64,000 bases of DNA from Capitulum mitella. Its lineage: Eukaryota; Arthropoda; Thecostraca; Pollicipedomorpha; Pollicipedidae. Below, one piece after another: positions 28,761-61,905 of the stretch (positions are counted from its first letter, which is position 1; every line of letters begins with the position of its first letter). The translations under genes and the position numbers were made by a program. The notes under the pieces are model-generated. The model saw nothing but the letters and a program-made list of their open reading frames with translations, had not been told where the DNA came from and searched no databases. The DNA is taken from assembly GCA_030062745.1 (NCBI GenBank), contig CP099840.1:29019006-29083005 (forward strand), read 5' to 3'.

Positions 28761-28940
28761 TGAACGAAATTGCACCCTGGCAGACCTGTGCCAGCGCGTC
28801 TCAAGGCGCATTGAATTCTACGTCATGGCTCGGTGCACCTGAACAGATTTGTGCCAGCAGGCCTCAAGGTCCACTGAGCTCTAGGCCGTCGCTTGATGTA
28901 CCTGGGCGGGACTGTGACATCAGGTCTCAAGGTCCGAGTG
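28761..28940 (-). repeat. Tandem copies of the PEX7 stop-codon region in the 3' flank
   Basis: On the plus strand, units starting at 28941 (real exon), 28881 and 28818 align over about 45 bases, with a partial fourth at 28761-28798. All three full units begin with CTA (the stop codon in antisense), then share the CGGTGCACCTGGACGG-like core and a CTGTG / CAGG end. Spacing is 60 and 63 bp. The units are probably transcribed as 3' UTR. Confidence 0.75.
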
Positions 28941-29091
28941 CTATGCGGCCGCTCGGTGCACCTGGACGGATCTGTCCCAGCCACAGGTGGCCAGAACCCG
29001 AGGCTCCAGCACCGACCAGTCGACGCCGAGCACGAACTCTGTGTGGCTGGCCAGTGCCGCCAGGCACCGGCCGTCTGCGGTGTTCCACAGC
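28941..29091 (-). CDS. PEX7: PEX7 terminal exon and stop codon
   Basis: The exon follows GATCGCAG at 29092, completes Arg, and encodes LWNTADGRCLAALASHTEFV, the GVDWSVLEP segment, LATCGWDRSVQVHRAAA and TAG (28941-28943). The family ends shortly after the CSWDETIKIYD motif, so this is the natural C-terminus. Degenerate copies of the last 45 bases, stop included, continue downstream. Confidence 0.92.
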
Positions 29092-31393
29092 CTGCGATCA
29101 GGGGCGCCAGTCAGTGGCCATAACACTCGTAAGGCACCGGAGTAAACGGCGTAAAAACACAGACCATCCAGCTCGCAACCACCCGGCCTCGTGACTGCGG
29201 CAGAGCGGTGACGCCACCAGACATTGCAAAATCGAGTGAAGCGCCATCAGAAACGTTCTGGTCTTGCCATCGTACGCCGTTTCAGTCGTCCTTGTGAAAA
29301 GTATCTGACTACACTTCATCAGCAAGCAAGACTATGACAGTAGTGAATGTCAAGCATCTACAAATCAGAAGCAGCATGGCGACGATGTGCCACGCATAAT
29401 CAAACGAAGGCCATACCTGCAAGTCTTGTCGTATGACACCGTTGCCAGTACATCGCTGTCAAAGGATGAAAACCTAGCCTTCCTTATGGCATAGGTATGA
29501 CCCTGTAACAAGATCGTCACTTGAAACGAATCCATCGGGCCGCCTTTGTTTGCACTGTCACGGGGTCTTTTTTTATTGCCATCTTCCCAAATTTCATGAC
29601 TTTAATGTAGCTTGACTAAGGGCATTTAAAGCTGCGGTTACGCACACAAGCTGATGACAGCAGAAGCCACAACATTACGAATGTCATACATGTCGTACGT
29701 CAAAATACTAAACCATGCTACTGAGCAACCGTAGTACATCCCAAGATACACTTCTACTGCTAGAACACGCGGTCCAGCCAGTGTTACACTATAAATCCTA
29801 ACAGACGCGGCCAAAATCTTTCGCACCGGTCGGTAAATAATGCCGGGACACTCAAGTAATTTATAACACCGCTGCAAGCATGCAAATAATGCAAGACTTT
29901 CACCACTGAGGGCGATGAAAGGACACACCTAACATACACGGAGCAGTCATCTCTACATCACTGCCTCGCGGTGCGCCATAACGTAAACGTGTCTGATACC
30001 GTCATCTGCTGGAGCGGCGCGCGCGCGCTGCGCAGGTCCCAGAGCCGACCGCAGCCGTCCACGCCAGCCGTGGCGATCAGCTGACCGCTATAGCGGCTCC
30101 AGTCGCAGCTCAGCAGCTCCGCCGGCGAGGCAGCCACGCTCAAGGCCGGCCGCGGCGTCGAGCGGCCGCTCCACACGCGCAGCACGCCATCAGCTGGGGA
30201 CACGAGCAGAGCCATCTAGCAGCAGTACAGGCAAACATTAGCTCGAGGTCGCTGCCGTCGGCCGGCGGTGAGGGAAGTACCTGAGGCAGTGGCGAATTGG
30301 CCGGCCTCCGAGGAGCACCAGGCGGCGTCGTAAACGCGCCCAGCGCACACCGGGTATGTTTGTGTGCAGAGAAGACTCCCAGCGTCCCACTGAAAACGGG
30401 GACCAACTGCAGCTGTGACCGAATATCGTGTACGTTGCCCAACACAAAGGCACCGTGAGCACAATACCATTCTGATGAAAAGCATTGCTACATGTCCGTT
30501 GTACGATAAAATATTTAATGCAGCTTACGCTTCGTCATTAAGGGTTCATTTCTAGGCGCCTCATTTTAATCACTGTGACTGAACAGACTGACCAAGAAAA
30601 ACACCCTCACAATATTAAGTTGCTAGACAAAACTGGCATCACTTTCGATAAGTATTAGATGTGATGGTCACAGCAAAAAATGTTTGAAACCGATCCGGTC
30701 ATTGATGGTTTTAACCGAACCGAAAAATGCAAAAGGATAGCACGGATAAATGGGACACACGCACTGATTGTAAAACGGCGAGAATGACAGCGACACGTTT
30801 CGAAACAAACCTGTTTGGCCGTGCCATCCCAGCTGGTAGAGAGAAGGGCCTGGTAACTTCTGACCTGACTCCAGGTCACACAGCTCACTTCCTGTGTGTG
30901 TTCCCGCCGCACAAGCGGAGCAGCCTGCAGCATAAGATCACCATGGATACATCCCAAATCTGCCTGTACAACCAGGAACCACCTTGAATGAAGCCATTAA
31001 ATGCATTAGTCATCAAAACGGAACAACTTTTCATCTCTTTGTACTGAACACCAAATCAGTCGAAATTTGCGTCAAGAACATCGCAGTGCACATAATATTT
31101 CACAGTATTTAGCAAAATATGACTGTCATAATTTCCATACATGAGACAACATCCATCCACAAAACAATGTTGAAACAGCATGCACCAGAGGCGGCGGCGG
31201 GTGCTGGCCATTACCCCAGGTTTGGAAATGTCGAAACAGGTGACAGCGTGGTCCCCGCTGCCAGCCACCAGCACGGCTGGACTGGACTCGGACCACGTAA
31301 TGTCAGTGATGACGTCGGACCACGGCGCACCCCAGAGGGGAACGAGGCGGACGCCACCGGACTCCAGGCGTAGCACGTCCACATGCCCACCTC
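28941..31393 (-). CDS. PEX7: PEX7, peroxisomal PTS2 import receptor (WD40), six exons, N-terminal exon not found
   Basis: Six minus-strand exons join in frame (31393-31215, 30924-30811, 30389-30281, 30193-30000, 29502-29417, 29091-28941) and give about 276 residues ending RSVQVHRAAA then TAG. The product is a WD40 beta-propeller that matches PEX7 along its length: TDITWSE, EHTQEVSCVTWSQ, VYDAAWC, LLSCDWSRYSGQLIATAGVD, GHTYAIRKARFS, HTEFVLGVDWS and CGWD. PEX7 is a cytosolic shuttling receptor that binds PTS2 peptides and carries cargo to the peroxisomal docking complex. The family is about 320 residues, so about 40 N-terminal residues (the RTPGRHGYAAEFSP-like part) are missing. The first exon here starts with two bases of a split codon, so another exon must lie upstream at higher coordinates; I searched to about 41 kb and did not find it. 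Confidence 0.93.
29417..29502 (-). CDS. PEX7: PEX7 short exon (GHTYAIRK blade)
   Basis: This 86-base exon was located by following the splice phases. TTACAG|GGT CAT ACC opens it, and it encodes GHTYAIRKARFSSFDSDVLA, TVSYDKTC and AG of an Arg before GTATGG. It matches GHTYAIRRVKFSPF..LASCSYDFTVR of PEX7 and connects both neighbours in frame. Confidence 0.88.
30000..30193 (-). CDS. PEX7: PEX7 exon, fourth and fifth blades
   Basis: The exon follows GTCCCCAG at 30194 and completes Ala, then reads DGVLRVWSGR, ELLSCDWSRYSG, LIATAGVDGCGRLWDLRS and APLQQMT before GTATCAG. EILSCDW and the WDLR repeat end are diagnostic of PEX7. The exon is GC-rich, unlike the neighbouring introns. Confidence 0.92.
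30281..30389 (-). CDS. PEX7: PEX7 exon, third blade
   Basis: The exon follows GTTTTCAG at 30390 and starts with WDAGSLL, finishing the previous blade (AKQ|WD). It then encodes GRVYDAAWCSSEAGQFATAS and ends TCAG|GTACTT with one base of an Ala codon. This corresponds to the IIYSTIWSP...FASASGD part of the family. Confidence 0.88.
30811..30924 (-). CDS. PEX7: PEX7 exon with EHTQEV motif
   Basis: The exon runs from CTGCAG|GCT to AAACAG|GTTTGT, phase 0 at both ends. It encodes AAPLVRREHTQEVSCVTWSQ followed by a blade ending SWDGTAKQ. The EHTQEV-x(2)-V-x-WSQ string is highly specific for PEX7. Confidence 0.92.
31215..31393 (-). CDS. PEX7: PEX7 exon, first WD blade region
   Basis: The acceptor is TTCTCAG at 31394 and the exon begins with GA of a split Gly codon. 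It encodes GGHVDVLRLE.., TDITWSESSPAVLVAGSGDH and ends DISKPG before GTAATG, with phase 0 at the end. It matches the DVTWSE...SGDGSLQLWD segment of PEX7. Confidence 0.88.
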
Positions 31394-31599
31394 CTGAGAA
31401 CAATCACCATCCAGCTCCCTACACTACAGAGCTGGTACTTCATTTTCAGCATCACCATGCACATGGCAGCAAGCAGCCAGCCAGGGCGTGGATGATACAG
31501 TAAGCACCAAATGTATTCAGAGATGCAATAATGATATGAAGAAATGTACATATTCTGCCCAGTCAAAACTGAAATGAGTCTCACAATACTCCACAACAG

Positions 31600-34500
31600 T
31601 GGGTCATAAAAACTTCATTAACCTCCCCTTCTGCAGCAGGGTTGGTTAGCACAATCTTCCCCTGAGCTCTTTTTTTCCAAAATGCTCCATATCGACTGCA
31701 GCAAACACTCCAAATGGATGATTTAAGAATATTAGCTGGATAATTCACTGACTTATGACCTATTCTTCAGGAAACATCACTGGGAAATCACAATATGGCT
31801 ACAGCTGCCATCAGACAGTACATGTTTTCAGTTTTTGTGTCCTTTTATTAGTCCTAATCAGCCTTATGTATGGGTCTTGCCCATGGTGTCAGTGACCCTG
31901 TGACCTCCACATTTACATCATATCATGGGTCAAGGTACTCTTAGGCCAAAATTTTGATCAGGTCACCAAACTTCTTTGAGCCTGTGTTGATCTCAGAAGG
32001 TCATTGATTTCAGGTCTTAATTAGAAGCTGTTTTGGCCCTTCAAAAGTGTGAATGGGTTATGTCCCATATAGTCTCAGGGAAACTAGCATCCTGTGGCAT
32101 GATGTAGGTTGTCTGTAAGACCATTGTGTGACTTTAAGGGCCAAACAGGACATTATCAGGCAGTAAAACAATAGATACAACTGCTATGTTTTATTATATA
32201 TATATCAGTAATGAGAAAACATTACTGATTCTCTGATACAGCATACCACACTCAGAAATGGTTGGGGATTGTACTAAAATGTGTTGAATAAATGCTGTGG
32301 AAGGTTGTCCTATGTTGACTACTGGCAGGGATTGAGATTTACTACATTACCCATTTGATCATTTTTTAATCTGCCTTCTAAAAGTGCAAAGATATATCCA
32401 ACCATACTGGATAAGAAATAAAATATTTGAAAGTTCAAATGCAAATTACAACTTAAGTCATTGGCTAAGTAGATAATCAGCAGCACATGATATAAACCAT
32501 GATGGAAGATAAACAGCAATAAACTTACCCCAAAGTCTAGATTGCATTACCCAATTTTACTTAAGCTAATCCAAAACTATTACTGCAGTTACTGTAGGCC
32601 ATGCAAAGCATTTTCAGTTATGCTAGTCATGTCAGTCAAAGGATACTCTCACCAAATATATGAAAGAATATGAGGTGATGATGGTATCATATTACAAATA
32701 ATTACATAATACAATGCAAACTTGGAAGTGTGATTAGGCCTGTGAATGAAATGCTAGGCAAAATGATTTGCAAATGAGCTTTATGAAGTGGCAGGGTGGC
32801 CACATGAAGTGGCCACATGCATCAGTGATGAGGTATATGGATGTGAGTTCATACTAACTTTGCACTGTGTGCTCTGTTTAGAGATCAAAGACTGTGCAGC
32901 AAACTATGCACAGTGCAAGCTCTGATTCTTAAATGTTCCAGCAGAATATCTGTATTAAATTTACAAAGAAGGGGGAAAGAATATTGCATATGGGAAAAAT
33001 ATTCCTCATGAAATATGCTTCTTTATGAAATGAGGATTTTTGATGCACTGGAACATTGGATAAGAGATGCACCACTTATACACCAGTGCAAAATAGTAGG
33101 AAATTGTTTTCATGGTGATACTATACTTTTTCATCTTTTTACAGACCACTTTTGCTACACATATGATACAGAAGAGCTCATAAACTTTCCTATGAGAGCA
33201 AGAAATGGTGACACAACCAGTATGGTTTTCAAAGGAAATGGAATTATGTTTCACTGTAAGCAAACGTGATCAGAACGGACAGCACCATCTTGTTTGCACT
33301 GCCTTGGCTCCAAGGATGCCCTATGTACTGCATGGGCAACATTGCACTGAAGGTGCAACCCAGTGCTGGAGGCACAGTATAGGATACTAGAGGCCATAGG
33401 CTGATTAAGGGTGCAATTGGACTTGGCTCCATCCAACAGAGGTTAGGGCATGCAACTAAATAGGTAAGGTTGGGTTAGGTTAGGTTAGGTTAGGTTATGT
33501 TAGGCTAGGCTAGGCTAGGCTAGGCTAGGCTAGGTTAAGGTTAGGGTTAGGGTTAGGGTTAGGGTTCAATTAGGTGAGGTTAGGTTGGGTTAGTTATCTT
33601 TTTTACTATTCATTAGGTTAGGCTACACCAATCACATCATTAGGCCCAAAATACTTTCATCTTCGGAATTGCCTTTTTGACTTTGTTACTGTAGAATCGC
33701 AGCAGGAGCCAAAACAGACAAGTCACACAGTGGTCAGCAATGAAGGGTGCTGAAATCACATTATGCAGCAACCAAGTCACAAGTATTTAACTTAGAACCA
33801 TTTGCTGTCTGATTTTTGTGCCATTTACACTGTTTTCATCACCTGGTGAGAATTTCATGTATGGCCATTTCCACAGAGCATTAAGTGTTTTTAAAACATT
33901 TTATGCCTACTCATATTGAAATGACAATTATTTTCTCTCACCCTGCCAAAAGTAGGATTCTAGAAATGTAATGTTTCTTCTCTAAAATTGAAAAATCCTG
34001 TGAATTTAAAAAAAACTACAGTTTAAAAGGAAAATAGTCATCTTCATTTCGGCTCTTCAGTACATTCTTAACATCGCGTACCTGAAAGTCCATAATTGGC
34101 ACCGGAAACAACAGCCAAAACCCCCACTTCAAAAGGTGACCAAGCAACTGCATAACAATGTTGTCCTTGGAACTTATATTGAGCCAAAGGCTGGTACATG
34201 GTAAGAAAATTATGCTGCCTACAAACAAAAGCGTTCTAGGTGGAATCAGATTAAGGTCTTCAGCAGCGAGATATAACGTTTATTTAAGCAAAAGGAAACT
34301 TTTCAGCAAAGAACATTTCACATGTTTAAAACCTTTTAATCATTATTATCGGCTGCTTATATTATTGTCTTGACTGAGTCATAATTGTACAAGATATTTC
34401 TTTGCAGTCGGCTGACTAAGTTGTGAACTAAGCTGAAATAGCTGTCTATATGTAAAAAAGTCCATTTTTAACACCACAATCTAGGAAAAGAATTGCATGT

Positions 34501-37459: not shown

Positions 37460-37589
37460 CAGGGGCGAAGCCAGGGTTTTCTTAAGAGGGGGGATGTCAG
37501 TGAAAACTGAAATCATACGAAAACCGCCTGCTGGGAAGACGATGTGCGATGGTTTTCACTAAAGAATGGGGCCTCTGGTTGCGCCGGTG
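37460..37589 (+). mobile_element. hAT-like MITE, family A, second copy
   Basis: The copy starts CAGGGGCGAAGCCAGGGTTT and shares CTGAAATCATACGAAA, CCGGGAAGACGA-like and CGATGGTTTTC segments in the same order as the copy at 10318. Its end, GGTTGCGCCGGTG, is an imperfect inverse of the start. Flanks TACTTAGT and TACACACT agree at 5 of 8 positions, so this looks older. Confidence 0.65.
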
Positions 37590-38334: not shown

Positions 38335-38425
38335 GCCGGCATCACTAGCAGCCGTGTTCCAGCTGAATAGTGCGATGCGATAACGAAACACGAGGCAAGA
38401 CCGGTTGTTTCGAGTCCCACGCTTC
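38335..38425 (+). repeat. Possible tRNA-like SINE fragment
   Basis: TTGTTTCGAGTCCCAC is close to a pol III B box, and CACTAGCAGCCGTGTTCCAG could be an A-box region. The evidence is weak. Confidence 0.2.
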
Positions 38426-38494
38426 GTGACAGAGGCTGGAAGGCGGCGTTTCAGTGTCATAATGCCTACTCTCGGCCTTATGACGATGAAATGT

Positions 38495-43400: not shown

Positions 43401-46400
43401 GTTGGCAAACACTTCATTTTTACCATCATCAGCCTTTGTAATTTCCGAATATGAAAGCCAACTTCATGAGGTGGCATTTGTCTTGTGCCGTAGTCAGGTT
43501 AAAAGATTGGAGGAATGTGGACTTTGTTTAAGGCTCTTTAGTTCGTCTTGTCTTTCGTTACCCTGAATGTTTGGAAACCGCGTGCATGAAATCGCATTTC
43601 ACTGAATTGTTTTTCGGTACCTTCAGCCATATTTTCGACCACTCGGCGTCGAGTAGTTTCGGCCGGATTCCACCAACCCTGCCCTCGAGTGACGACGATC
43701 TTGTAAGACAGAACTCATCCCCGCGTCCAGAAATAGCAGCGATGAGCTTCCGGTCGTGAGAAACTTGCAGCTGCAGTTCAAACCGGCACTAGCCGGTTTG
43801 AACTTCCGAGTCTTGGTCTTTGACCAGATTCGCATGGAGTCCAGCAGTGATCTTCATCCTTGAATGCACTTACATACGTTTCAGTTGCTTTTAGGTGTGC
43901 TAAAAGCTTTGGTTCTTGTTTCGAGGGGATGTCATGTACCAGCCGGCTGCAGCCAAATGGGTGCGCCTAGTGGGACGGTGTGCGGTGACTTTTATGAAGC
44001 ACTCTTTGATCTGCTGCTGTGACGATGGGCATTCACTGCAGGTCTTGGCTCGCGATCATTAAACATTGCAGGGACGTAGGAACTGGGGGGGGGGGGGGCA
44101 GGGGGCAGCTGGCGCCCCCAAATTTAGGCAACATTTAACATTAACCCTTTGGCGGCGCGTGCAAAGAAACGAGGTAAAAATCACGTTTCCCCGTACCCCC
44201 ATCTCCACAGAAGTTCATCCGCTGCTGGAACATTATGACAGCGCGACCGTATTTTTCCATATGTTTGAAGTTCTGTTCAATCTATGGTTCACGGTTTTAA
44301 GTATAATATTGCAATAAACGTGATAGCATTCACATTGTTGCAACGGGAATACGACAACTATGTGTTCTGAATGCGCCAGACAAGAGCACTGCCTCTAATT
44401 TTAATGATACTTCGTGCCTCTTCTCTTTTCATTCATGGGTAACTCCCCGCCGACATTTACGGATGTCATCCAACACGTGCCGCATAGTTCGGTAACCCTT
44501 CCAGACAAGATCGCTATTTGCCGTTTTAGGACTGCAGGCCTTTTGTTCCATGCGGAAGCTGGCGTGTCGCAACAGTGCCGACCATAAGCATCCATCCCTG
44601 TCCGCCAGATGGGTCCTGCTAGGATCCTGTGCGGTCGGTGGCAGACTCCCCGGTTGCAGCATATCCCGATTTATTAACGGGTTTTAAGAGGCGGAGTTTA
44701 AGGACGAGGTTTAAAAGGTGGAAAATACACGAGTGCTTAGAAACGCACACCATTTGTTCGTCTAAATCCCCCGGTAAATGTTCCCCATGTCGGCCCGTAC
44801 ATCGCTGAGTGACCTCCCCAGGTCAGGTGTCCCCTACAACGCTGAGTGACCTCCCCATATCAGGTGGCCCTTACATCGCTGAGTGACCTCCCCAAGTCAG
44901 GCGGCCCCTACATCGCTGAGTGACCTCCCGAGATCAGGCGGTCCCTACATCGCTGAGTGACATCCCCGGGTCAGGCGGTCCCTACATCGCTGAGGACCTC
45001 CCCGGGTCAGGCGGTCCCTACATCGCTGCGTGACCTCCCCAAGTCAGGCGGACCCTACATCGCTGAGTGACCTTCCCAAGTCAGGCGGCCCCTACATCGC
45101 TGAGTGACCTCCCCAGGTCAGTCGGCCCCTGCATCGCTGACTGGCCTCTCCGGGTGGCAGGGGGCTATCTGGCGGACATGCCAGATAGCCCTGATCAGGT
45201 CAGCACCGGATCAGGTGTGACTGAACCGGTGCTGACCTGGCGTCTGTGGCCCCAACGACCGCGTCCGTCTTCTCTGGTTCGCCCACGACCACGTGGACGA
45301 ACCAGAGAGCACAGGGTGGTACCCTGTGGACTTCGTGACCAGACTGACCATTTTTACAGCGGTGGAGCACTAATGCGCGATAGTCGGATTCGCCGTTTTG
45401 GTTAGGAATGCTAAATAATGCCAATTTCTGCGTTGTTTTTACGAACGTTTTCGGCTTTTAGTGCAATATCAGATATTAACTCAGAAACCTGTAAACGCAC
45501 TTCGGCGATCTTTTGTGCGTTTGATGCATCGGGACCACTGTTTCTCAAGACTCAACGCAGCACTAGTGAAAGCCATTTCCAGGTGACAGTTGGTATCCAC
45601 CATATATGTTTCGGATTTTGGTTGGCCGTTGCCAGCGCGGGACTGATTGCCTTTTTGCACCAGGTCGGTCGGACTGCGGTTCCTGATTCACAGCCTGTCC
45701 CGGGGCGGGGATCTGGGCTCGACTGCCGGCGGAAAGCTGCGCGCTGCCGCCCCAAGCTCCCCTTGATTGAGGCTTAATGCGGACTTTAAGGCGCCGCGGG
45801 CTGCCGTGCCGGGACCGGGAGGAGCGCCCGCTGCAGGGCTGGAACAGCAATCGAGATTAAAGCCACCGCAGCGATTGGCTCGGGAACCGTAACTAAACCG
45901 AGTTCCGAGCAGACGCCGATATCCAGGACTCGAGGGCATCAGGAGACTTGTCACGGGTCCAGTGTCGGTGTCACTTTTTGTCGCGTTGAAAGGGACGACA
46001 GCCATGATATTTTCGTTCCGGTGATCTTCCGACTCTTCAAGTTCGCGTCACAGCTTGGAAGCGCGGAGTGGAATGTGCTGGAGTGCGTGATCCAAAGTGC
46101 TGCTTTTTCCTGGATTAATCCCCCTGTCTTGAGACAGCTATTGAGGTGGGTATTGATTTAAAGTGGATCTTGATGTTAATCGGGAACATGCCCTGGATTT
46201 GTCGTCTCTTCAGTGATGGATCTATGTGTTGAGGGGAGGGGTTAAGTCTTCACCCGTGTAACGTAACATACCCACAAAGGCAAGCAATGCAGTGCACCAG
46301 TATTATCCCCTTCGTGGTGACTGATAAGGTTAAAAGTTGCACTGTTGGTTCCCAGGATTTTGGCTAGATTATGGAAACACAGATTTCTGTATACTAGGAA

Positions 46401-49400
46401 AGCTGTGCTTTACACGCAGAGGATATGTATTAATACTGGATTCAACTTTTCGACTTAAGGCCGTGTTCAGGAAGATTTTACTGACGGTGACTGTGGGTCG
46501 AAACGTTGAATAAAATACAAATAGATGTGTATTACGTTTAAAACCCAATTTCTCCTCGCATAAGGAAAGCCGTTTTTTACAATCATGCATTTTTGGTGAG
46601 TCAGATTGCTGAGCCTCAAATGGAGCAGCAATAACCCCAGGCTTCTTGATGTTACTGTACCCTCGAGTTCGACTCTGCAGCTGTTTAGTCTACGGAGTAA
46701 CATATCCGCCAAATGCATTGGATCACCTTTGTGGTGTCTGTCGCCTGGCTTGTGACCACATCGGTTCGTCGCAGGGCACAGCCTGCTGGTACTGTTGACC
46801 TCTGGATAGAGTTCCTAGTAACTTGGAGACATTGCGTTGTGACATGGCAACTACTGACATTATTGACCTCCGGATAAAGATCTTGGTGACCTGTAGCCAT
46901 TGGATAATGGTATGGCACAGGCTACTATTCACCTCTGGATGGAGTTCCTGGTGACTTGGAGACATTGCATTATGGCATGACAAGGACTACTGACGCTACT
47001 GACCTCCTGATAAAGACCTTGGTGGCCTAGAGTCAGCGGATCGTCGCATGGCACAGGCTATTGGCTCAGTCAACTGCCGTATTCAGTGCCTGGTTGGTGC
47101 CAGAAAGTCTCTTCGTCTGAATCGTATTTTGTACAGCGCGGCGAGACATATATTTTCACGCGGACTTGCGTTCTGACTTTTAAAAATCGGAGGAATGGAT
47201 TGATAGATGACCACGCGCCCGCGTGGCGTTAACAACGCAACCATGGGCCTGAAAAGAGCGAGTCCTGAATGGTGACCATCAATGTGCCCAGTGAACTGTC
47301 TGAGGCGCTTCAAACCACGTGCCGTGGTGCTTAAGTCGTTAATGCGCTGTTGGCGCAGTAACCGCACTGATTGGTCCTTTTTTACCCCGCCGGATGGCTT
47401 GCCGTCTTGATTTCTGTGCTACAGTGCTGCGCTGCTGAACCCTTGTCCCGTCGTCTGTAGAACGAAATCAGTCATTCCTCCACTTTGATTTTCCTGTTTT
47501 GTAGGGCATGCGTCGCCCGTCCCGTGGGACCATGGAGAATGCGTTGCCGTGCGAACAGCATGTCGAGGAGCGTCGTGCAATGATAATAAAACTGTGGCCG
47601 TTGTGCCCGAACTGACGTGGCGAGCAATCAGCTGTCACGATGTAGGCGCACTTGGTAGAAAACCGCAAAAACTGCGGCGTTGCATTGCGTGTCAAAACGT
47701 CATTTGCACCAGCTCTGCTGGGCGATAATGGAAAGATTCATTCAGCTGTCAAATAGTGTACCCCTCGGCCTCCGTGCTGCGAGATGGCATCTAATCAGTG
47801 TTGGGGCAGGCGGCGCACAGCATCGCCTCACCGCCCTGGCAGAAGGCAGCCAACTGCCTGTTATGAAACCTCGTGGTGGGCGTGATCCGTCTTCGTTAGA
47901 GAATCGTGTGGCGGAACTGCGTGACGACCGAAAAAAAAAACGAAAAAAAAACGCAAAAAGTAAAAAAGAAGAGCCGGTAACAGGCCTGCCTTGGGAAAGA
48001 ACTCGGAGAGCCCGATTCAGCCGGGCTCGGCAGCAGCCTCGGGGCGCAGCGCGACAGAACCGGCTGATTGCGGGCCACTAACGGTCTCGCCACGCCCGAG
48101 TACGCCGCCCGCAGCTGCCGCCCTGCAGTCTTTGGTAACGAGACTGCTCGGGTGCCCGGCTACGCGCCGTGTGTGCCCCTCAGAGTGCGACGGCCGTGCT
48201 GACCTGCGTGATAACGAGCTGCGTCGTGTGCGTCTCGCCGGCGGCGAAGGATCGCGTCTGATTTCTTCACGCTCCTTCCTCTCTTACCTTGACTGGGCTG
48301 CGCCAAGGCCGCCGATCTGAACTGCGCAGTCACGAGAACGGGACGGTGATCTTGTCCCCCTGAAATATTTGCTGTCGAGGGGCAGCAGATTTTCCCCAGT
48401 TTTTGGTGGAAAACCGGCGTCGTACTTCGCAATTTCCGACAATCTGGCCATGAATACGGTATTGTTCTCCTGTGGTTTCGTCTAGTGATGGCCCCAGAGC
48501 AAACTGGTGCACTTTGGTCATCGCGTGCGGCCCATTGGGAATATACTTTTCGTCTGTACAATGTCAACACGCACTGTCGCCTTACGACGTAGCAAGGACT
48601 TGGCAGCCGTCATGTCGACGTGTTAAGATAGGCAGCATTGGCCGCCAACCCCCCCCCCCCCGATGACGTTGATGTTAATGATTGCCGTCATGCTTGGGTG
48701 GACGAGTTGTCCCGGATGTCCGCAGATGCTCCTGACGAGCCGTCAGTGGATGTCTGCAGATGCTGCTGTGTCCTGTGCTAACCAGTGACAGTACCACGTT
48801 GTCTGTGACTGATAGTATCGCTGTGTCCGCAGATGTTGCTGCGGTAACCTGTGGCAGTACCACAGCGACGGTAGCCCGGCCACTCTCCAGCACACGGTGA
48901 AGGGGGACGACCATTGGAACCCGCTGCGGCACACCACGCTTCATCCCACCGATGCCTATGGCACGATCGAGTTCCAGGCAAGAGATACGGTCCGGGGACT
49001 TCACACGTGTCCTCCCTCGCGATTCGTGTGGCTTGTGGCTGGCTTATTTGCCAGCCTGGCATTTGGTGGCTCAGCAAATGCCGACGTCATGGAAGGGGTT
49101 GTTTGCAATGCTGGCGGGCCCGGTGCTTTCACTGGTCCGCTTCCTTTGAGTGTTGCTGAACCGGGGAGTTACGGGGGAAATTTCTCCGTTTTGGTTTTCC
49201 GACATGACTTCTGAACGCCAAAAGCCAAACGCCAAAAACTTGAAACATTCAAGAACCCTACATGAACAACACTTCTTACCATTCAGATAAAAGATATAAA
49301 CCAAGTTATCGTTGGAGTCACAGATCCTGTTTTAGCCACTGCTGCCCTTTCTGTATCCGTCCTTTCCTACAGGAATGGCTTGAAATAGCCTCAGGATGGC

Positions 49401-52400
49401 GAGAAGGCCAAACTGAAGGTCATATAGACCACATGTGACCTCATGTAAGATCAAAACGGTTATTTGTGGGCTTTGCACAGTGCTCCTTTAGTGTTTTCTC
49501 CAATCTAAAGGTGGTTGGATCAGCCAGTGTTGCGGATGTAAAGAAACAAGTATTATTTTTTTAGGTTTTCGTAAAATTTTACACTACAACCATAAAAAAT
49601 GTTACATTGTCATATCATGGTCTCATTGGGCCTTGTGTCGAATGTGACAACATGCATACTTTCTCGAGGATATATATATATATATATATTTTTTTTTGTC
49701 GTAGCAAAATAAGCTCATTCAACGCTACATGTTGCCAGCTTCGACCACTCTTACACTATGTATGTCCCTCTGAAGCGGTCGGCATACTACCGCCAAATTT
49801 TAGGCTTGGCATGGCCTGTTACGTCGTTAGAAAGTTTGAGATTAACAAGTGAGCCACACCTGGTGTATTAGACTGGCTGGATATTGCTTGCCCTTAAAGA
49901 GCTGAAAGCTAACAACTACCCCAGTTATGCTGGGTTAATGTTTCGTAAATAGTAAGGCGAATCCAGATTGCGAATGTCGGAGACCACCGGGTCGCGGCAA
50001 TGAGTGGGAGAAATTGGAGAGTTAATTAAGTGGTCGTAGACCGTCCTGCAAGAAACTGAGTTTTCATCGGTGTAGTGTAGGCTTTGTAGTGTAGGCTTTC
50101 TTGTCGTATGGACACTTTTTCGTCATCTTTCTGAACGTCCTGGAAGCTGCAGATCCTAAATACTTACCGTAAAACTCACGCATGATTTGTGTTGCATGCG
50201 TTGTGAAGTGGTTCTACGAATCCCGTTGAGCTCATCTGGCGTATGCGAGATTTGTAATGCCGAGGATTGCGTATCTGACGTTGATCACCAGATAAGGCAG
50301 AGAAAGTCGCCAAGGAGATTAAGATGGCAGTGAGACGAGACGATAAGCTGACAGTTGTTACTTTTACGTTTGAATTTGCGATGGATAAGGTTTTACTACA
50401 AGTGAGCAAGCTCCGCAAAACTTAGGGGCGCATTGGAGAGGTTAGTGTGGCTGGTACCGGCTAATGTATTTCGTCACCCATTAGGAGATGGGAACATTCC
50501 TTACAGCAGTGTTTCATGCATGTGGACCTTCGGGGCTCGCGTGTCAATGGTGACGCCACGTATTATATGCGGTACCAGGAAACCGACCTTCAGCTCTTAA
50601 CCATTTGTTGGGATTGGTTGTTTTCCGAGACTTTCAACGCGAACGCATCATTGCTGACTATTTACTCAGTTGCTGTATCCCGCGCAGACTGCGTGTCCTT
50701 ATCGCACAGAGGCAGACGCGTCGACCTTTGTGGCTTTGTTCATAATGCGGTCTTGCGAACCAAAAAGCGAACCAGACACCCGCTCAAAAAAAATCGCGGC
50801 ATCTGTGGATGACAGTTTACACTACAAGCTGGCGACCATCTACTGTCTCATACTTTCAGTAACAGTGGTCCTGGACCCGATGCACCGAACGCACAGGAGG
50901 CTCACCACGTGCATGTGTGTAGTTTTCTACTCCTTTGTGGGTGCTCCTGCTTTGCGACCATATGGAGAAAGCACGCACAATGGCTTGGAGTCCCCAGGAC
51001 GAGGCGAAGACGGGCACCCCCAGTCCCTTGCACGGAGATTGTGCCGTCCTCTTGGAAGTGTTTCATAGTCATTCCGCTGCACAAGTCAGGTGATTCTTCG
51101 AATGCGTCAAATTTCCGGCCTATTAGAAACGTTCCACTGATCTGCAAAATTGTCGAAAAAAGTTGTACATCGCCAAGTCAGCGACTACATGCGGTGGATT
51201 AGCCTGTTCAGTGACGATCAGCTGGGTTTTATATCCCACCACTCAACGTGTACAGCTCTTTTAACTGTCACTGACCATATTCTGCAAGGTATGGACCGTT
51301 CAGAGGTATCGTTGCTGCCACTGCTCGATCTTAGCAAGTGTTTTGATGGAGTGGCTCGTGACGTGATCCTGGAGAAACTTCAGCGGCTGCAGATATCCCC
51401 AGGATGGTTTCCAGCTGTCTGAAAGGCCACACGCAACGTGTGAAAGGCGGCGACAGATTTTCAGAACCGAAAGCGCTGTAGATTGGCACGTTCCAAGGAT
51501 GGTGCCTTGGGCCGCTGCTCTTTAACATCGTCATTAGCGACCGAGCTTGTCACATTCCCAATGAGATCAATGGCTTCCGTATAGACATTGCTCAGTACGC
51601 CGATGATACCCAGCTGTTGATCACTGGCCCACGTTCGCAATGAGACGCGCTGGAGAATGTGTTGGACACTGTGTACACTTCGTTCTTTCAACACGGCATG
51701 AAGGTAAGTGCTCAAAAAACCGAGCTCATGTTGTTAGGTAGCAGCCGCAACCTCAACATGATAACAGATCCAGACACAGTGTCCTTCATACAGCAGCCTC
51801 TTGCCCCCTCAACAAAGGCTAGAACTGTAGGCGTGATCATGGACTCGTATCTTACGTGGGAGCCGCATGTCAACAGCGTTGTTTCAAAGTGTAACGGCAT
51901 ACTCATTGGTCTACTAAACGCCAGGAGCGTCTTCCCACCACGCCTCCTGCCTCGTCTCATCGACACTCTGGTGCTGTCTCACATCAGATATTGTTTGCCA
52001 GTCTATGGAAACGTATCTGCACCCCAGTTAGCCAAAATGCAAAAAGTTTTGAATTTCTCCGCTCGCGTAATTTCGTGTCGACGCAAATTCCAGCATATAT
52101 CTGATGTGATACGGCCACTCAAGTGGCTAACTGCCAAAGACCTAGCCATTGTTGGTGACGTCAACATGCTGCACACCATTTTAACATCGCAGCAGCCTGC
52201 GTATCTGTTTAAGAGTTTGTCTTACAAAAAGGACCACACCTGTCTTGTCACCAGACAGTCAAACATGCTGCATGTGCCCCGTTTTCAGCACCTTCGGCCA
52301 GCGCACTTTTATATACCGAGCTTGTGCCGAGTATAATACCCATGTCATACGTCACAGTTTACAACACTCCTCTTTACCGGTATTAAAGCATATCTTGAAA

Positions 52401-55400: not shown

Positions 55401-58400
55401 GGTGTGCTGAGTGACCTGTATATATGCAGTGGGGTAATAGAGCATTTAAATTGTCGGGCAACTTGGTGGAAAAGGCAGGGTTGATCTTAATCTTTTGAAT
55501 CCATGTACTAAGCAGCTGGCATGATATCGCGCGGCGGTGAGGATCCAGGCACTTTTTGCCCTTTGGATACATCTGGCAGGGAAACGACGACTCTTAAGAT
55601 GCCAAGAAGCAATTTTCCTGCAGGGCGTTCGTTCTGTTTCCCGAGCTGTTTTGCTGGCATCTGAATAGTTCTGGCCGGGTCGTGTTTGTCCGAGGGGCTG
55701 GCTGTCTGGCTGACTGCCCGCCGTCGGTGGGCTGAGTGGGCCGAGAGTCTGGCTGAGTGCCCGCCGTCGGCGCGATCTGGACGGGGCATGCCGGGAACCG
55801 GAGTCTGGGTACACCCCGCCTGGTCTGAGTCCGGCCAGAAGTTGTCAGCCATTCCCCAGAATTATGGGGCACCTCAGGTTGTTCTGTATTTGTCAGTGCA
55901 GAACTGTTCGGTCATGAGTAAGCAATTTTTTACGTCAGTGGAGTGATGTAACCAGACGTATTGTTCAGTTCAGTCGCCGCCAACGCAACAGAAGTCATGT
56001 TGTCGGTGTGCTTAGGTCATTTCATTTATCAGTCACAGATTTTTTTACGTGAGTGGAGTGATGCAGCCAGACATATTGTTCAGTTGACCCGCCGCCTGTG
56101 CAGCACAAGTCATGTTGTTCGGTGTGCTTAGGTCATTTCTTTTCTGCTGAGTCGTGGTCACTGTGTCTCAGCATGCCGGACAGTGCCTTGCGGTACACGC
56201 AGCTCGGCGCCTTAATGGACCAACTCATTCACCGTAATTGTACAAGAAATTCGGCCTTTACTACCAGACTTTCCTTGGTGTTCGTTAATTTGGGTCCAGA
56301 CTTTTGTTCCAGAGCTTGCCTCAGCATCAGTCCGCGTCAGTCACACATACAATGAAAGCTTGGAAATGCGACCTTTCTGTTTCTGTATGTATCTGGGATG
56401 TCAGGTCGCTTGCGAACTCAGACCGGATGGTTCAGAAACTATTTCTGGCGTCGTGCCCGCAATATCTGATTTCTTGATGATGATTTCAACGCTTATAGCT
56501 TATCGTCAATGAAACTTCGCATGTACCCATTCCAGTTTCATCGCCTTGTCTGGCAAAAGTTGGGCCATCATTGGATAGCAGGTATGGTTTCAGTACGTGA
56601 CGTGTTGGCGATGCCCAGGGTAGGCATTTTGATTCCTCCGATCATGTCTTACCCTGAGTGACACTCCAGCGGCCGGGCAGACTCGGTGCGACCGAACCGA
56701 TTGGTTGTCGACGTCAGAGGCGCACCCAAGAGGAATGATAAAAGCACGTGGCCGAGCGTGATGATGAACGAACTGTGACTGTTAAAGCAATGTTTAATTT
56801 CGAACTTTATGCCCAGGGGTGTTCCCCTGATCGGAGAAGCGGGTTGGAAGAAGCCAGCCAGCACGTGTGCGTGACGGCGACAGTAGCGTTGGATGAATCA
56901 TGTCTTATCTTCTTGGTCTCTATCCGGGGTGTTGAGTCACGATGAATGGGTTACATTCATTACACGGGAAGTACCCGTACCTGTGGCCCGATTTTGACGG
57001 AACCTTTTTCAGAAATCGGCGCTAAGGCTTAAATGGCGCGCCGAGATGTCTTACCAGCGTTGAAGTATCAACGCAAGGTACCGTGTACATACATTCTTGT
57101 GAAAATCGCCTCGAAAATTTGGAAATGCAGGATGTAACACCGGCAGGGGTGAGGCAGTCTGCTGAGTAAACCTTCCCCAGGCCAACAGGGCATCTACGAC
57201 TCGGCCTGGTCCGGGCGGTAGTTTGTGCTCTTCATGACGTAATATCCCAGGTTTGCAACGGAACAGCTGTGCGCTGTTCGACTAAACGCACTGGGCGGCT
57301 TCCGTAAGCTCCTATCGGCATCAGCTAGTCACATTCATGTGAAGTTGAGATTATTGCTGCCGTCATTTCCATAAGACGCTGTGGGCTGTGACTGGCAATG
57401 TCATTCCCACAACAGTGAAGTGGACTGAAAGTAATTAGGTAAATTGACAAGACTGCATTGTGTAACGGGTGAAGCGAGTATGCACCATTAGCATTCCGGA
57501 AGATGTTAAATCGCATGTCTGCGCCAAATCTCGGTTGCAGAATTGCAGTCTAGGGAAGGTTGCAGAACTGCAGTCTAGAGATGTCATGTGATTTCGAATC
57601 CCAACCCGCATGCTACAGAGACAGACACCATCAGGTTCATGGGATTTAAGTTTGCAGCCATTTTTTTTTATGCCCAGTCAGACTGCAAGTCTTCAAATCA
57701 CGATTCAGCAGCCAAGTTTGAATCTGGAGTTCTTGGTTCTTAGTCGCGTTGGGCTAGCGCGATTTCTTCACGCTTTTTGTTATGCACAGTTAGTTCGGCC
57801 AGCAGCAATCAGATCTGTCTTTTTCATAAAATCCGGCGGGGCTGACAGTTGTGGCCCTCGTCTGCTGCCCTGTGCGTTTGTTGTTCCGAGAAGCCGACCG
57901 GTCTTGAGGCTGCGACTGGTGACGCCCTCCCTCCACAGGGCGGCGCTCACCCGAACAAGGCGCAATACGTGCGTGTGGCGTTCGACACCCGGCCGGAGCT
58001 GCTCACGCAGCTGTTGGTGTCAGCCTGGCGGCTGGAGCTGCCGAAGCTGCTCATCACCGTCCACGGCGGCAAGGCCAATTTCGAGCTGCAGCCCAAGCTG
58101 AAGAAGGCGCTGCGGCGCGGCCTGCTGAAGGCGGCCCGCACGACCGGCGCCTGGATCTTCACCGGCGGCACCAACACAGGTGAGCTGTTCACCGGCGCCT
58201 GGATCTTCACTGGTGGGTTTCTCCCAGCACAGTGGCGGTGACACTTGCTTACGCCTGTGATTTGACCGTCGGGGTTCGTCGCCGCACAGTGCAACAGTTT
58301 TTGACGGGGCGGATGACAGTGTTACGGTGCCTTGCTCTAGTTTCGACTCTGATCTGCTCCACCCAGATGTAAGGTTATGTTGCGTGCGGATTATACGCTG

Positions 58401-59211
58401 CCTCACGTGATCCGGGCGTGGCTGCGCTGATTTTCATTCAGGTTAACAATGCTGTAGCCGCTACAGATATTACCATGTACTGCCTTGTACTGTTATCGAT
58501 AAGCCACATCCTGTCCATGCATGGCGTTATTACTGTTCTCATCGTTTTCCTTCTCTTTGTCTTGGTATCGGAGGATGGGACGAGTCTCATATACAGTGTT
58601 GGAAACCTGGTTTTTCTTCCTGGTGTCGGAGTACAAAGTCTCTTGCAGTATAAAATGTCATGCGCTTATGTGAGGAACATGGAATAACTAGGTGTTTGGC
58701 AAGCATATGTGGCCAGCAGGGACGGATCCAGTGGCTCCGTTTGGGAGGACAAACCAGTTTCCTGGGTCTACATAGTAGGTCAGCGGAGTCAATGATCGGG
58801 GGGGGGGGGGCGGTTGATGGTGGCTGGCCGTGGGCTCGGAATGTTCTTCAGCGGCCAAGTATGAATGATAAACCATCAACCGGGGGGACGCTGGGCAACT
58901 TCCAACTCTGGTTGAGTAAGAATACCCATGCCTTTTGGGGGAGGGGGCAAATGACCATTTTGGAGTGCAAAATTTTTCTTGGAGTACAGATTTTTTGGTG
59001 CTCCCTGACACCAGAAAACGACAGTTTTTCGAACACTGTTGACAAAGGTCTGCCGCTGCCGCATCCGTTCTGGCTTTTCCGTGGTGTTTTCTTTCCCCAA
59101 TGAGATGGTCCTGTGTTCCGTGTAACTATGACCCCGCTGCATACTTTTTTAATTGACATATTTTGGTCCCCCACCGGAACTTTCGTTGTTAGTTGCGTGT
59201 TATTACAGTTA

Positions 59212-59248
<37 letters not shown>

Positions 59249-61905
59249 GCACGCACGCACGCACGCACGCACATTCTTGTAAGAGGTCGTTTATGGGGAC
59301 CGGGCGCGCGTGAGATACAATGCTAGCTTATGGAGACTGACTGAACTTCTTTAATATAAGAGGTAGCGCCATGAAATTTTCTGAGAAAGTGCATGAGGGG
59401 ATTGGTGCCGAATTGGTACCATTGATGTGTTCTTACGGCGATGTGAAAATGTTGCATGTAAAAAGAAATTTGTGGGGACCGGCGCCCCGCTGTGGGAATA
59501 ACAAAGCCCCAGCCGAGGTACAAGCTGTGGGAGGAGTTGGAATCCGTCGGTCCAGCTGCCTGAAGCGCACCGATCTATAAACAGTCCACGTCGGGTGGAG
59601 CGGTAGGAAGGACGTGGTTTGTGCTGAAAAGCGCGATGCTGACTCTTGTATCAAGTTAATGTGGTAAGAACACACATACAAAGGAAATGTCCATAGCGTA
59701 TGATGCAATTTTAAATCCACATCATTTGACACAACGTTCCTAAAACACGCAACTGATGATAGCAGCCTGGCAGCAGAGTATGGTTGTGTCCTGCCTAGCT
59801 TAACCTTCGCTCGCCCTCTAAGGGGGAATTCTCGAGCCCCCCCCCCTCACGTTTTCTAGATTCTAGACAAAGCTCACGAACAAAGAGAGCTAGAAACTGT
59901 GTGAGTGAAAGGAGTCGTCCACTACAGACAAGGCTAAAAGAACGTCTGGCAGACATCAGATCTGGCAAGATACATAAATCGGCCACAGCAAAGCACGTGT
60001 TTGACAGCAAAAATGATTTAAATCTAATTTTATTTTATTATTATTTTTATTTTTGTTTTTTCATTTCTTTATTTATTTTTTATTTAGCTATATATTAAAT
60101 TCATTTTTATTCATTTATCTATTAAATTAAATCAGCCCGTAAAAACTGTAGCTGTGATGCCAGCTTGGGGGAATATGGTGGTACGGGAAGCAATTGAAAT
60201 CAAGCAGCTAACTAGATTGGAACTAGACTGTTAGGATGGATTTGACTGGAATTGGACTGTTGGAATTGGAATTAGACTGTAATTATAATTTTGTGATTAT
60301 GATTGGACTGTTGGGATTGGAATTAAATTATTGTGATTGGAATGATACTGAGATTAGACTGTTATGATTAGGATTATACTGGAATTAGACTGTCAGTATT
60401 GGGATTAGACTGGGATTAGACTGTTGGGATTAGACTCAAGTAGACTGTTGTGACTGGAATAGGACTGCTGGGATTGGAATTAGACTGTTGGAATTAGGAT
60501 TAAACTGTTGGCATTGGGATTAGACTGTCGGGATTGGGATTGAGATTAGACTGTCGGGATTGGGATTAGATTGTAATTGCGGGACAGTCTTGACCACACG
60601 CTTGCTTCCAGGCTTCCCAGGTGGCACTTATGCACACACAAGGGCTATCCCGATTCTTCGGGCCCGGTAAAACAGAAGACTGCTCCGGTAACGTGAAATG
60701 AGGCCGTGCCCTCGGGCAATGCCACCGGGTCTATTTTAAGGCGGATCACGCCCGTGCACCCATTGCCGCGGGCGCTGGACGGTACAGTGTTTATCCCGCG
60801 ACAAGGCGAACATTTCCCAATTGCTGCCATCTCCTGGGTATGAGCCGGTCTAGGAAAAGTCTGCCATGTGTCAGGCTCGATCCGTAGACCTCCCACTTAC
60901 CGGTTACGCGCATTTCCCGTTCGCGCCACTGGGTTGGTTCCGCTGCATACTTTTACGAAGTTTCTTCCATGGAGCTTCAGTGTTGCTGCATTGCACATCG
61001 TTGCACGTTGGTCTAGGCCCCGTGGATGGTAGCTTTTATTGCTACGAACGTAAAGGGTAGTAAAACAGCTTGAAACACTTGTCAGCCTTTAGTCTGAAGG
61101 GGAAAGCGGGGTTTAGGTTTTGAGGAAAGAAAGCGATCTGAAAGTAGTGACGGCGTATTCCGTTGTTCGTTAGCGCCATGTGAACGAACGGTGTTGTCTA
61201 GGTCGGGGTAGACGGGGTGTATATGAGAGGGCGTACTCTGAAACAACGCCTCTCTCTCTCTCTCTTACGCGAAATTTTTTTTAATCTTTTGTTAACTACT
61301 GCTGATCTCGTCATTATTGGAACTAATCTTTTCTTAATGAAGACTGATTTCGTTTCATCCCAGAAACAGATTGTGACAATGTCGTACTCTTTATGAGTTT
61401 GACGCTACTGTGTTCCGCTCAGATGTGGCGCCGCGGCTGTGTTCCGTTGTAGCACGATGCTGCTGTGTCCCGAGCAAATGTGGTGCGGCTGTGTTCCGTG
61501 CGGGTGTGACGCGGCTTTGTGCCGTGCGGGCGTGACGCCTCTGTGCTCCACGTAGGTGTTGCGCTACTTTGTTCCATGCAAGTGTCATGGGTTGTGTTCC
61601 GTGCATGTGCAACGCCGCCTTGTTCCTGCGGGTGTAACGTGGCCGTGCTCCGGACTGGCGTGAAGCGCCTGTGTTCCCGCGGATGTAACGCGGTCGTGTT
61701 CAGTCCAGGCGTGACGCGCCCGTGTTGCCGCAGGCGTGACGCGTCACGTCGGTGACGCGCTGGCGTCCGGCCAGTCGCTCCGTCTGGGCGGCCAGCGCGC
61801 CGTCTGCATCGGCATCGCTCCCTGGGGCGTCATTGAGGGCCGGAACGAGCAGCTGATCGGCCGTAACCGGGAGGTGCCCTATCACATGGCGCAGGGCCGC
61901 TTCAG
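40332..61905 (+). CDS. TRPM-family cation channel, N-terminal four coding exons (gene continues beyond the window)
   Basis: Exons 40332-40456, 48833-48977, 57939-58179 and 61734-61905 join in frame into about 227 residues of the TRPM homology region (LSDAT-like N-terminus). Diagnostic strings are [88 protein letters not shown] and [23 protein letters not shown] proteins form tetrameric, Ca2+/Mg2+-permeable channels; this cytosolic region precedes the membrane core by several hundred residues. The ATG at 40332 (CACCATG context) gives [15 protein letters not shown] before the conserved SWIE, a reasonable start. The last exon ends with a split codon, so the channel core lies to the right. No frameshift is seen. 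I cannot say which TRPM subtype; arthropods commonly carry a single TRPM gene. Confidence 0.95.
42542..42559. repeat. 18-bp perfect palindrome
   Basis: GGTTACTTATAAGTAACC is self-complementary with no spacer. No adjacent coding feature explains it. Confidence 0.8.
43775..43804. repeat. Inverted repeat, 13-bp arms, 4-base loop
   Basis: AGTTCAAACCGGC and GCCGGTTTGAACT flank ACTA. The stem is perfect. Confidence 0.8.
44069..44227 (+). mobile_element. hAT-like MITE, family B, second copy
   Basis: The copy starts CAGGGACGTAGGAACTGG and contains the same GGCAACATTTAACATTAA and GGTAAAAATCACGTTT blocks as the copy at 21404. It ends CATCCGCTGCTG. Flanks AAACATTG (44061-44068) and GAACATTA (44228-44235) agree at 6 of 8 bases. 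A poly-G run near the start is expanded. Confidence 0.75.
44796..45155 (+). repeat. 36-bp minisatellite, about 10 copies
   Basis: The unit is near CCCTACATCGCTGAGTGACC TCCCCAGGTCAGGCGG. Copies are directly adjacent without spacers, so it is not a CRISPR array. It ends where a series of stem-loops begins. Confidence 0.92.
45162..45328. repeat. Cluster of four consecutive stem-loops
   Basis: GGGCTATCTGGC / GCCAGATAGCCC (45162-45191), CAGGTCAGCACCGG / CCGGTGCTGACCTG (45196-45239), TCTCTGGTTCG / CGAACCAGAGA with an inner CCACG/CGTGG (45271-45308), and CACAGGGT / ACCCTGTG (45310-45328). The long arms are perfect. No coding sequence is recognised. Confidence 0.88.
46481..46504 (+). ncRNA. Degenerate hammerhead-like or Penelope-like terminal motif
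   Basis: CTGACGG, TGACTGTGGGTC and GAAACGTTGAATAAA resemble the motif at 11744, but the core reads CTGACGG instead of CTGANGA. Probably an inactive element remnant. Confidence 0.25.
46740..47065 (+). repeat. Degenerate tandem repeat, about 60 bp
   Basis: GACCTCTGGATAGAGTTCCT, GGTGACTTGGAGACATTG and ATGGCACAGGCTACT-like words recur about five times. The unit length varies around 60 bp. Confidence 0.7.
48715..48832 (+). repeat. Partial tandem copies of the TRPM exon 2 acceptor
   Basis: TGTCCGCAGATGCTCC (AG end 48725), TGTCTGCAGATGCTGCTG (48759) and the real TGTCCGCAGATGTTGCTG (48832) are spaced 34 and 73 bp apart. The second copy also shares TAACC and CAGTACCAC with the exon. Confidence 0.7.
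48833..48977 (+). CDS. TRPM coding exon 2 (CCCG to GTIEFQ), GC donor
   Basis: The exon opens after GTGTCCGCAG, completes Arg, then encodes [37 protein letters not shown] and [11 protein letters not shown]. It ends CAG at 48977, followed by GCAAGAG rather than a GT. The next exon continues exactly at GGAHPNK, as in other TRPMs (GxIxFQGG), so the intron is GC-AG. Two partial copies of the acceptor and exon start lie just upstream (AG ends 48725 and 48759). Confidence 0.88.
50760..52612 (+). mobile_element. Decayed non-LTR retrotransposon (reverse transcriptase part and 3' tail)
   Basis: The segment keeps reverse transcriptase blocks in order: [20 protein letters not shown] with [44 protein letters not shown], the catalytic YADD (51596-51607), [24 protein letters not shown] and a thumb/C-terminal region to about 52336. 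The 3' end carries AATAC repeats (52593-52610) in place of poly-A. The order and motifs fit the Jockey/CR1/L2-like branch; I cannot fix the clade. The 5' half (endonuclease) was not recognised. It sits in the sense orientation in TRPM intron 2. Confidence 0.85.
51030..52336 (+). pseudogene. Reverse transcriptase of non-LTR element, broken by frameshifts and stops
   Basis: The reading frame changes near 51150-51170 (between CKIVEK and [10 protein letters not shown]). It stops after GWFPAV (about 51420) and again just after LLITGPRSQ (about 51641). An intact frame runs from 51659 to 52336 (225 residues), covering the end of the palm, the thumb and the C-terminus. The fingers and palm are therefore in at least three pieces, so the element cannot make a full protein. 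The number of lesions suggests an old insertion. Confidence 0.85.
53808..53967 (-). mobile_element. hAT-like MITE, probable family A copy in inverse orientation
   Basis: Read on the minus strand it starts CAGAGGTGCAGCCAGGATTT, close to the family A start. The other end is CTCCGGCGGAGCCA. Flanks TAAGCGAG (53800-53807) and CAAACGAG (53968-53975) agree at 6 of 8 bases. Length, about 160 bp, matches the family. Confidence 0.6.
55926..56160 (+). repeat. Direct duplication, about 115 bp
   Basis: TTTTTACGTCAGTGGAGTGA, ATTGTTCAGTT, AGTCATGTTGT and CGGTGTGCTTAGGTCATTTC occur twice in the same order (about 55926-56040 and 56041-56160). Confidence 0.8.
57517..57592 (+). repeat. Short duplication GGTTGCAGAAYTGCAGTCTA
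   Basis: Two adjacent 24-base copies, followed by ATTTCGAATCCCAACC, a B-box-like word. It could be a pol III SINE remnant, but the fit is poor. Confidence 0.45.
57939..58179 (+). CDS. TRPM coding exon 3 (GGAHPNKA to GGTNTG)
   Basis: The acceptor is CCTCCCTCCACAG at 57938. The exon encodes [58 protein letters not shown] and [19 protein letters not shown], and ends ACACAG|GTGAGC with one base of a Gly. This is the best-conserved TRPM N-terminal exon. The last part is duplicated 48 bp downstream in the intron. Confidence 0.95.
58143..58216 (+). repeat. 48-bp tandem duplication across the TRPM exon 3 donor
   Basis: ACCGGCGCCTGGATCTTCAC at 58143 (coding) recurs at 58191 (intron) with 24 of 26 bases shared over the whole block. 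The period is 48 bp, 16 codons, so the frame stays open through the second copy (TGAWIFTGG again) until 58241. Confidence 0.85.
58717..59072 (+). mobile_element. Possible hAT-like element (CAGGGACGGATCCAG terminus)
   Basis: The start CAGGGACGGATCCAG resembles hAT termini, and GCCGCATCCGTTCTG near 59072 is a plausible inverse end. I could not find a convincing target duplication, so the right boundary is tentative. A poly-G run at about 58799 and no coding sequence are seen inside. It lies in TRPM intron 3. Confidence 0.35.
59215..59273 (+). repeat. (AC)n(ACGC)n microsatellite
   Basis: About 14 AC units run into about 7 ACGC / GCAC units. Confidence 0.95.
60225..60585 (+). repeat. Degenerate repeat of GGGATTGGGATTAGACTGTT
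   Basis: ATTAGACTGT recurs about 15 times at 15-30 base spacing, with GGGATTGGAATTAGACTGTT as the commonest form. Confidence 0.85.
60795..60925 (-). repeat. Possible tRNA-derived SINE, minus strand
   Basis: On the minus strand GTGGCGCGAACGG, then GGATCGAGCCTGACAC at tRNA-like distance, recalls A and B boxes. Cloverleaf pairing is not convincing. Confidence 0.25.
61405..61733 (+). repeat. 26-bp degenerate tandem array of the TRPM exon 4 acceptor
   Basis: About twelve units with consensus near TGTGTTCCGTGCAGGTGTGACGCGGC lead directly into the true junction GTGTTGCCGCAG|GCGTGACGCGTC. The unit before it (AG end 61708) keeps CCAG|GCGTGACGCG, only 25 bp upstream of the real acceptor. Units differ at several positions, so the array is old. 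Confidence 0.8.
61734..61905 (+). CDS. TRPM coding exon 4 (VTRHVGDAL to GRFR)
   Basis: The exon follows GTGTTGCCGCAG at 61733, completes Gly, and encodes [38 protein letters not shown] and [17 protein letters not shown], ending TTCAG|GTGAGA. It matches GVxKHVGDAL...[10 protein letters not shown] of TRPM. It is preceded by about twelve 26-bp look-alikes of its own acceptor and followed by a 32-bp minisatellite. Confidence 0.95.

Follow-up and report, generated by a model that had tools for sequence, protein, structure and literature searches.

In amphioxus, tandem repeats lying across exon-intron boundaries have been described under the name mirages (PMC3087553). They occur in Adh3, the globin genes BflGb6 and BflGb9, PGBD5, and TnC, with similar arrays cited for the presenilin and retinol dehydrogenase loci, and have units of 10-160 bp at both exon ends, with AG or GT in many copies. 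Reverse transcription-PCR suggested regular splicing of the amphioxus genes, and copy number was unstable (PMC3087553); a second paper treats the same amphioxus phenomenon (PMC3902484). Here we report on arrays of this kind in a 64,000-nucleotide window from the barnacle Capitulum mitella (contig CP099840.1, positions 29,019,006 to 29,083,005, forward strand), where a sequence-only reading had noticed repeats derived from exon edges at six junctions of three genes, and on the frequency of such copies elsewhere in the same assembly. We conclude that the edge arrays are real, widespread, and of a named kind. The reading we favor, with a probability of roughly 0.72, is that they are mirage minisatellites, that is, ordinary tandem duplications tolerated by splicing and formed without a special system. 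The results neither demonstrate a special boundary process nor exclude one entirely.

The sequence-only reading had known of no named system of this type, but the amphioxus mirages are of the same kind (PMC3087553). In both animals, 5′ and 3′ exon ends are hit, the size of the unit depends on the gene, and AG or GT stands in many copies, though not in all. In the barnacle, the repeat unit spans the exon-intron boundary, acceptor and donor boundaries are both affected, and the splice dinucleotide is present in many but not all copies (35/45). Unlike the amphioxus mirages, the arrays reported here have an arthropod host and lie in none of the genes listed above, and their frequency comes from edges unselected for repeats. 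Splicing neutrality and length instability are reports from amphioxus, whereas the arthropod arrays are known from the sequence of one assembly.

Two further systems are related. A Rogers-type model, as described in PMC3087553, has introns gained through tandem duplication; there, as here, the duplicated segment carries splice signals, whereas the barnacle copies sit within existing introns and no new intron was seen. Literature searches on exon-edge or intronic repeats in crustaceans or barnacles found nothing, which is weak evidence of absence given poor coverage of subscription papers, and the only paper found on intron gain with minisatellites was the amphioxus globin paper. Within the reach of these searches, mirages have no earlier report from this animal group. 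A single human case, IFI6 (6-16), has a donor-site minisatellite whose unit is 12 bp long and which provides several donor sites. Like the IFI6 array, those reported here begin at the exon end and supply repeated donor sites; unlike it, they have longer units and copies known from sequence alone.

Six edge arrays in three genes

Exons were set from translation, splice sites, and homology. PEX7, TRPM, and a cuticle protein gene together gave 12 exons and 24 edges: seven minus-strand PEX7 exons (best solved relative, PTS2 receptor 3w15 chain A), TRPM exons 1 to 4 on the plus strand (joined protein matching LSDAT_euk, E 1e-47), and the cuticle exon, which matches Chitin_bind_4 (PF00379, insect cuticle protein, E 1.5e-11). 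The edge test aligned the 40 nucleotides (nt) at an exon end with the 500 nt next to them and used as many as 300 randomly drawn segments of 500 nt as the null. Local realignment found copies at all six named edges, as follows.

12781..13215, plus strand: cuticle exon 2 acceptor array (Tandem Repeats Finder [TRF] 12830-12941 and 13029-13219, period 46; copy alignment)
13393..13441, plus strand: degenerate copy of the cuticle exon 2 donor edge, 78 bp downstream (38/51 identity)
48717..48832, plus strand: two copies of the TRPM exon 2 acceptor edge (48717-48734 and 48751-48797; edge test score 30, above all null segments)
58192..58239, plus strand: copy of the TRPM exon 3 donor edge (48-bp duplication; edge test score 42)
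61402..61733, plus strand: degenerate TRPM exon 4 acceptor array of about 26 bp (TRF rows within 61456-61545 and 61616-61743)
28786..28909, minus strand: two copies of the PEX7 C-terminal/stop-codon edge (28786-28858 and 28859-28909; 52/73 and 38/51 identity; edge test score 40)

The exons concerned are listed below, together with one further PEX7 exon.

13199..13352, plus strand: cuticle (Chitin_bind_4) exon 2, from the PF00379 match and splice contexts
48833..48977, plus strand: TRPM exon 2, whose own donor appears to be GC
57939..58179, plus strand: TRPM exon 3, from the LSDAT_euk match of the joined protein
61734..61905, plus strand: TRPM exon 4, from translation, splice sites, and homology
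28941..29091, minus strand: PEX7 last exon, stop codon at 28941-28943, with 3w15 chain A as the best match of PEX7
29417..29502, minus strand: PEX7 exon 6, which completes the seven exons of the edge set

The differing periods given by the sequence-only reading (46, 78, 34/73, 48, 26, and 60-63 bp) were borne out closely by TRF and realignment. Its interval, 28761..61905, did not hold all of the arrays, as those of the cuticle gene fall outside it at 12.8-13.5 kb. At the cuticle exon 2 acceptor, the 46-bp unit comprises the acceptor and the first 17 nt of the exon, and the last unit extends into the exon. Seven copies lie upstream of the used site, mostly at a spacing of 46 bp, one of them partial and reaching only to the AG. 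The copy at the donor of the same exon is single, and its dinucleotide is GC. At TRPM exon 2, the acceptor copies are spaced by 34 bp, with the nearer one 73 bp from the edge, and the copy at the TRPM exon 3 donor has a core identity of 23/25 nt. The PEX7 stop-codon copies lie at 60 and 123 bp from the edge. The donor of TRPM exon 2, at window position 48978 (plus strand), is apparently GC in the context CAG/GCAAGA.

Five of the 24 window edges beat every null segment in the edge test: the PEX7 stop, the TRPM exon 2 acceptor, the TRPM exon 3 donor, and both cuticle edges. At TRPM exon 4, the acceptor failed the 40-nt test (p 0.058) though its array is visible, because the nearest unit holds the acceptor and only about 12-15 nt of exon. 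Thus, all six junctions reported earlier were recovered, five by the test and the sixth as a visible array.

Copies at unselected edges and their make-up

Local copies were also found away from exon ends. A near-identical test, in which no more than one null segment could score as well, had a pass rate of 7.8% among 1876 non-exon positions of the window. In 20 random 10-kb stretches of the 477-Mb assembly, which consists of 16 contigs of 18.3-45.5 Mb, 7.7% of 2240 positions scored above every one of their null segments (up to 200). The pass rate varied strongly among the random stretches, from 0.9 to 48%. As the rates in the window and in the random stretches were similar, we conclude that local tandem copies are general in this genome and that single matches are not rare.

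Two sets of edges were drawn without regard to repeats. For the blind set, exons in the random stretches were located by coding score with repeats ignored and were checked in context, ten pieces by Pfam. We read the genes as WDR47-like, FBXL20-like, RFC4-like, sialyltransferase, NDUFS6-like, and OSGEP-like; Pfam backs this at the domain level, with the FBXL-like leucine-rich repeat matches and one of two sialyltransferase pieces below the cut-off. Left out were a CDC6-like exon in L003 with edges not fixed, the first sialyltransferase acceptor (an untranslated start), and the last stop (near the end of its stretch), and the remainder outside the edge set consists of the L003 piece without a Pfam match and other coding-score candidates. 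A copy was found at 5/32 blind edges, and the RFC4-like exon among them was perhaps found partly because repeats lengthen its open frame. At the RFC4-like donor (L017, minus strand, oriented 6814-7068), four degenerate copies follow at 51-bp steps and the frame stays open through them.

The family set was taken from Pfam exon matches to the myosin head (86) and chaperonin (61) in the same genome, 88/147 of which were used (42/86 myosin and 46/61 chaperonin, from 14 loci). Edges were called by in-frame joining of neighboring exons (78) or by best splice site (59), which gave 137 of 176 possible edges; the rest had no acceptable site or lay at profile ends. Ten of the 137 edges (7.3%) were copied in the adjoining intron, and the seven myosin loci alone, a subset, gave 5/68. 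Together, the two unselected sets had copies at 15/169 edges. The earlier estimate that about a quarter of edges are affected therefore holds for the window (6/24), whose six edges were chosen post hoc, but is high for the genome.

Exon interiors and introns in the family loci served for comparison. None of 137 interior positions, 40-80 nt into the exon, passed, and 311/3944 intron positions (7.9%) did, so that the ratio of edges to introns was 0.91 (locus bootstrap, 0.50-1.51). Four other settings gave 9-12/137 edges, interiors of 0, 1, 0, and 0 of 137, and introns of 6.8-8.4%. The sequence-only reading had proposed a comparison of edges with exon interiors and introns; carried out here on sampled edges, it places edges above exon interiors (10/137 versus 0/137) but level with introns. 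A strong edge preference was rejected, as the edge rate equals the plain intron rate in the same loci. Of the idea of independent events that share a position rule, edge derivation and differing units and periods are supported, as is recurrence beyond the window, but the rule itself is weak, as edges behave like introns.

The plain intron rate is inflated by long arrays, which cover many intron positions, whereas an exon end can fall only in the last unit of an array. A geometry-matched control was therefore added, limited to positions with 150 nt of unrepeated sequence on one side (pseudo-edges). Pseudo-edges passed at 3.2% of 3242 in the family loci, 2.8% of 5888 in the random stretches, and 2.6% of 2602 in the window, and real edges in the same test passed at 10/136, 5/30 (blind set), and 5/22, respectively. 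The null pool was redrawn for these runs, and the ten family matches differ slightly (L030 is lost and L033 gains one).

The make-up of the copies was determined at 21 edges, comprising 11 acceptors, 9 donors, and 1 stop codon. Copies with at least 8 exon bases were present at 17 of them, of which six belong to the window (five splice edges and the stop-codon edge) and the other 11 are splice edges as well, and two acceptors and two donors had no copy at that setting. The splice dinucleotide was kept in 35/45 copies, against 73% expected by drift at 85.6% overall identity, though copies within one array are not independent in this count. Nearest periods spanned 25-170 bp and were distributed 6/6/5 over the three frames across 17 arrays, or 7/6/4 when TRPM exon 3 is given the period 48 rather than the gap-shifted 53. 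Neither dinucleotide conservation beyond the neutral rate nor in-frame periods, either of which would point to splice decoys, was found among the 45 copies and 17 arrays.

Some copies nevertheless resemble complete sites. A chaperonin acceptor (L031:2544-3112, plus strand) has at least six near-copies upstream, which comprise 20 bases of intron plus 34 of exon, are 89-98% alike across 49-54 nt, and each carry a pyrimidine-rich tract and cag/G. By our exon calls, only the last acceptor gives the correct frame when joined to the exon before it. A myosin donor in L022 has at least six copies downstream, with GT in all six found.

Weighing the explanations

If the arrays are ordinary minisatellites, tandem duplication by slippage or unequal exchange would strike noncoding DNA about everywhere in a minisatellite-rich genome. 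When the duplicated segment straddles an exon end, the exon would stay intact, and a duplicate of its end, in most cases including the splice signal, would be added to the intron. An array of this kind would survive where splicing keeps using the exon-adjacent copy, presumably at no cost to splicing, and might later expand inside the intron; deeper intrusions into the exon would be lost. Because the exonic copy is constrained, similarity to it should fade about half as fast as that between two intron copies. Coding constraint would thereby keep edge arrays visible for longer and may produce a neutral excess of up to 2-fold at edges. A modest excess of about 2-fold could thus be explained by constraint on the exonic copy.

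Several results weigh against this account. Family edges exceeded the geometry-matched control by a ratio of 2.3 (1.1-3.6), the pooled unselected sets gave 15/166 against 2.9% of all controls (p about 1e-4, clustering ignored), and the blind set gave 5/30 (p 0.001, or 0.02 with the control rate doubled). Young copies (score at least 50) numbered 3 against about 0.6 expected (p 0.02-0.03), and although these are three cases only, they speak against slow fading, because slower fading should not matter at that age. Of all the results, the young-copy excess hints most at a true preference for edges, in which splice-junction motifs, R-loops, or the step in base composition would seed slippage or microhomology repair at exon ends. 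That explanation draws on edges about 2-3 fold above pseudo-edges in two repeat-blind sets. Against it, edges were copied no more often than ordinary intron positions of their own loci, within-locus resampling of the family set gave 10 seen versus 6.0 expected (p 0.08), and acceptors, donors, and a stop codon are hit alike. Moreover, slower fading of the constrained copy may itself supply up to 2-fold; when the expected number is doubled, agreement is good for the family set (P 0.76) and marginal for the blind set (p 0.02). The earlier suggestion of a duplication process clearly favored at exon-intron boundaries is not supported, and we regard a true preference as unlikely, though the strongest competitor. 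Equally doubtful is a fuller version in which exon ends are preferred founding sites, about 2-3 fold over matched introns, and a boundary process based on splicing-coupled R-loops or junction microhomology makes perfect decoys that the spliceosome ignores through an exon-proximity rule. Were it true, new introns and extended exons would arise from mirages repeatedly across animals.

The sequence-only reading had also proposed that the minisatellites are retained as decoy splice sites. Arrays kept because their copies serve as decoy or spare splice sites, or as in-frame alternative exon ends, would account for the near-complete sites at the chaperonin acceptor and the myosin donor, but dinucleotides are retained about as drift predicts, the nearest period is a multiple of three in just 6/17 arrays, and one array lies at a stop codon, where there is no splice site. 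A decoy function was rejected on these grounds and seems to us very improbable. Still less credible is chance alone, under which a window rich in minisatellites was inspected by a reader attentive to edges and the pattern has no general cause. Local copies at 7.7-7.9% of arbitrary positions and the post hoc choice of the six window edges would favor chance, but edges chosen blind to repeats show the same (5/32 and 10/137), on which basis pure chance was rejected, and copies with at least 8 exon bases occur at 17 of the 21 edges examined. We conclude that mirage-type duplication remains the preferred explanation.

Earlier accounts of mirages, as far as the accessible part of PMC3087553 goes, proceed gene by gene in amphioxus, whereas here several percent of exon edges are affected in a distant phylum. 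This suggests that mirages may arise in any minisatellite-rich genome. Arrays of near-copies such as that at the L031 chaperonin acceptor are natural tests of splice-site choice, and how the exon-proximal site is chosen among near-complete copies is a real question. Intron sliding and intron gain may also draw on mirages as raw material, a question already raised for amphioxus.

Other repeats in the window

Intronic minisatellites occur in TRPM with a 32-bp unit at 61967-62290 and a 37-bp unit at 44791-45155; an exon-edge origin was not noticed for either, and no dedicated check was made. A non-LTR (non-long terminal repeat) reverse transcriptase-like fragment lies at 51141-52333, its first piece a weak RVT_1 match just under the cut-off and its second without a Pfam match. 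Finally, an interstitial telomere-like TTAGG array with a TTAGGG stretch within it is present at 33461-33593.
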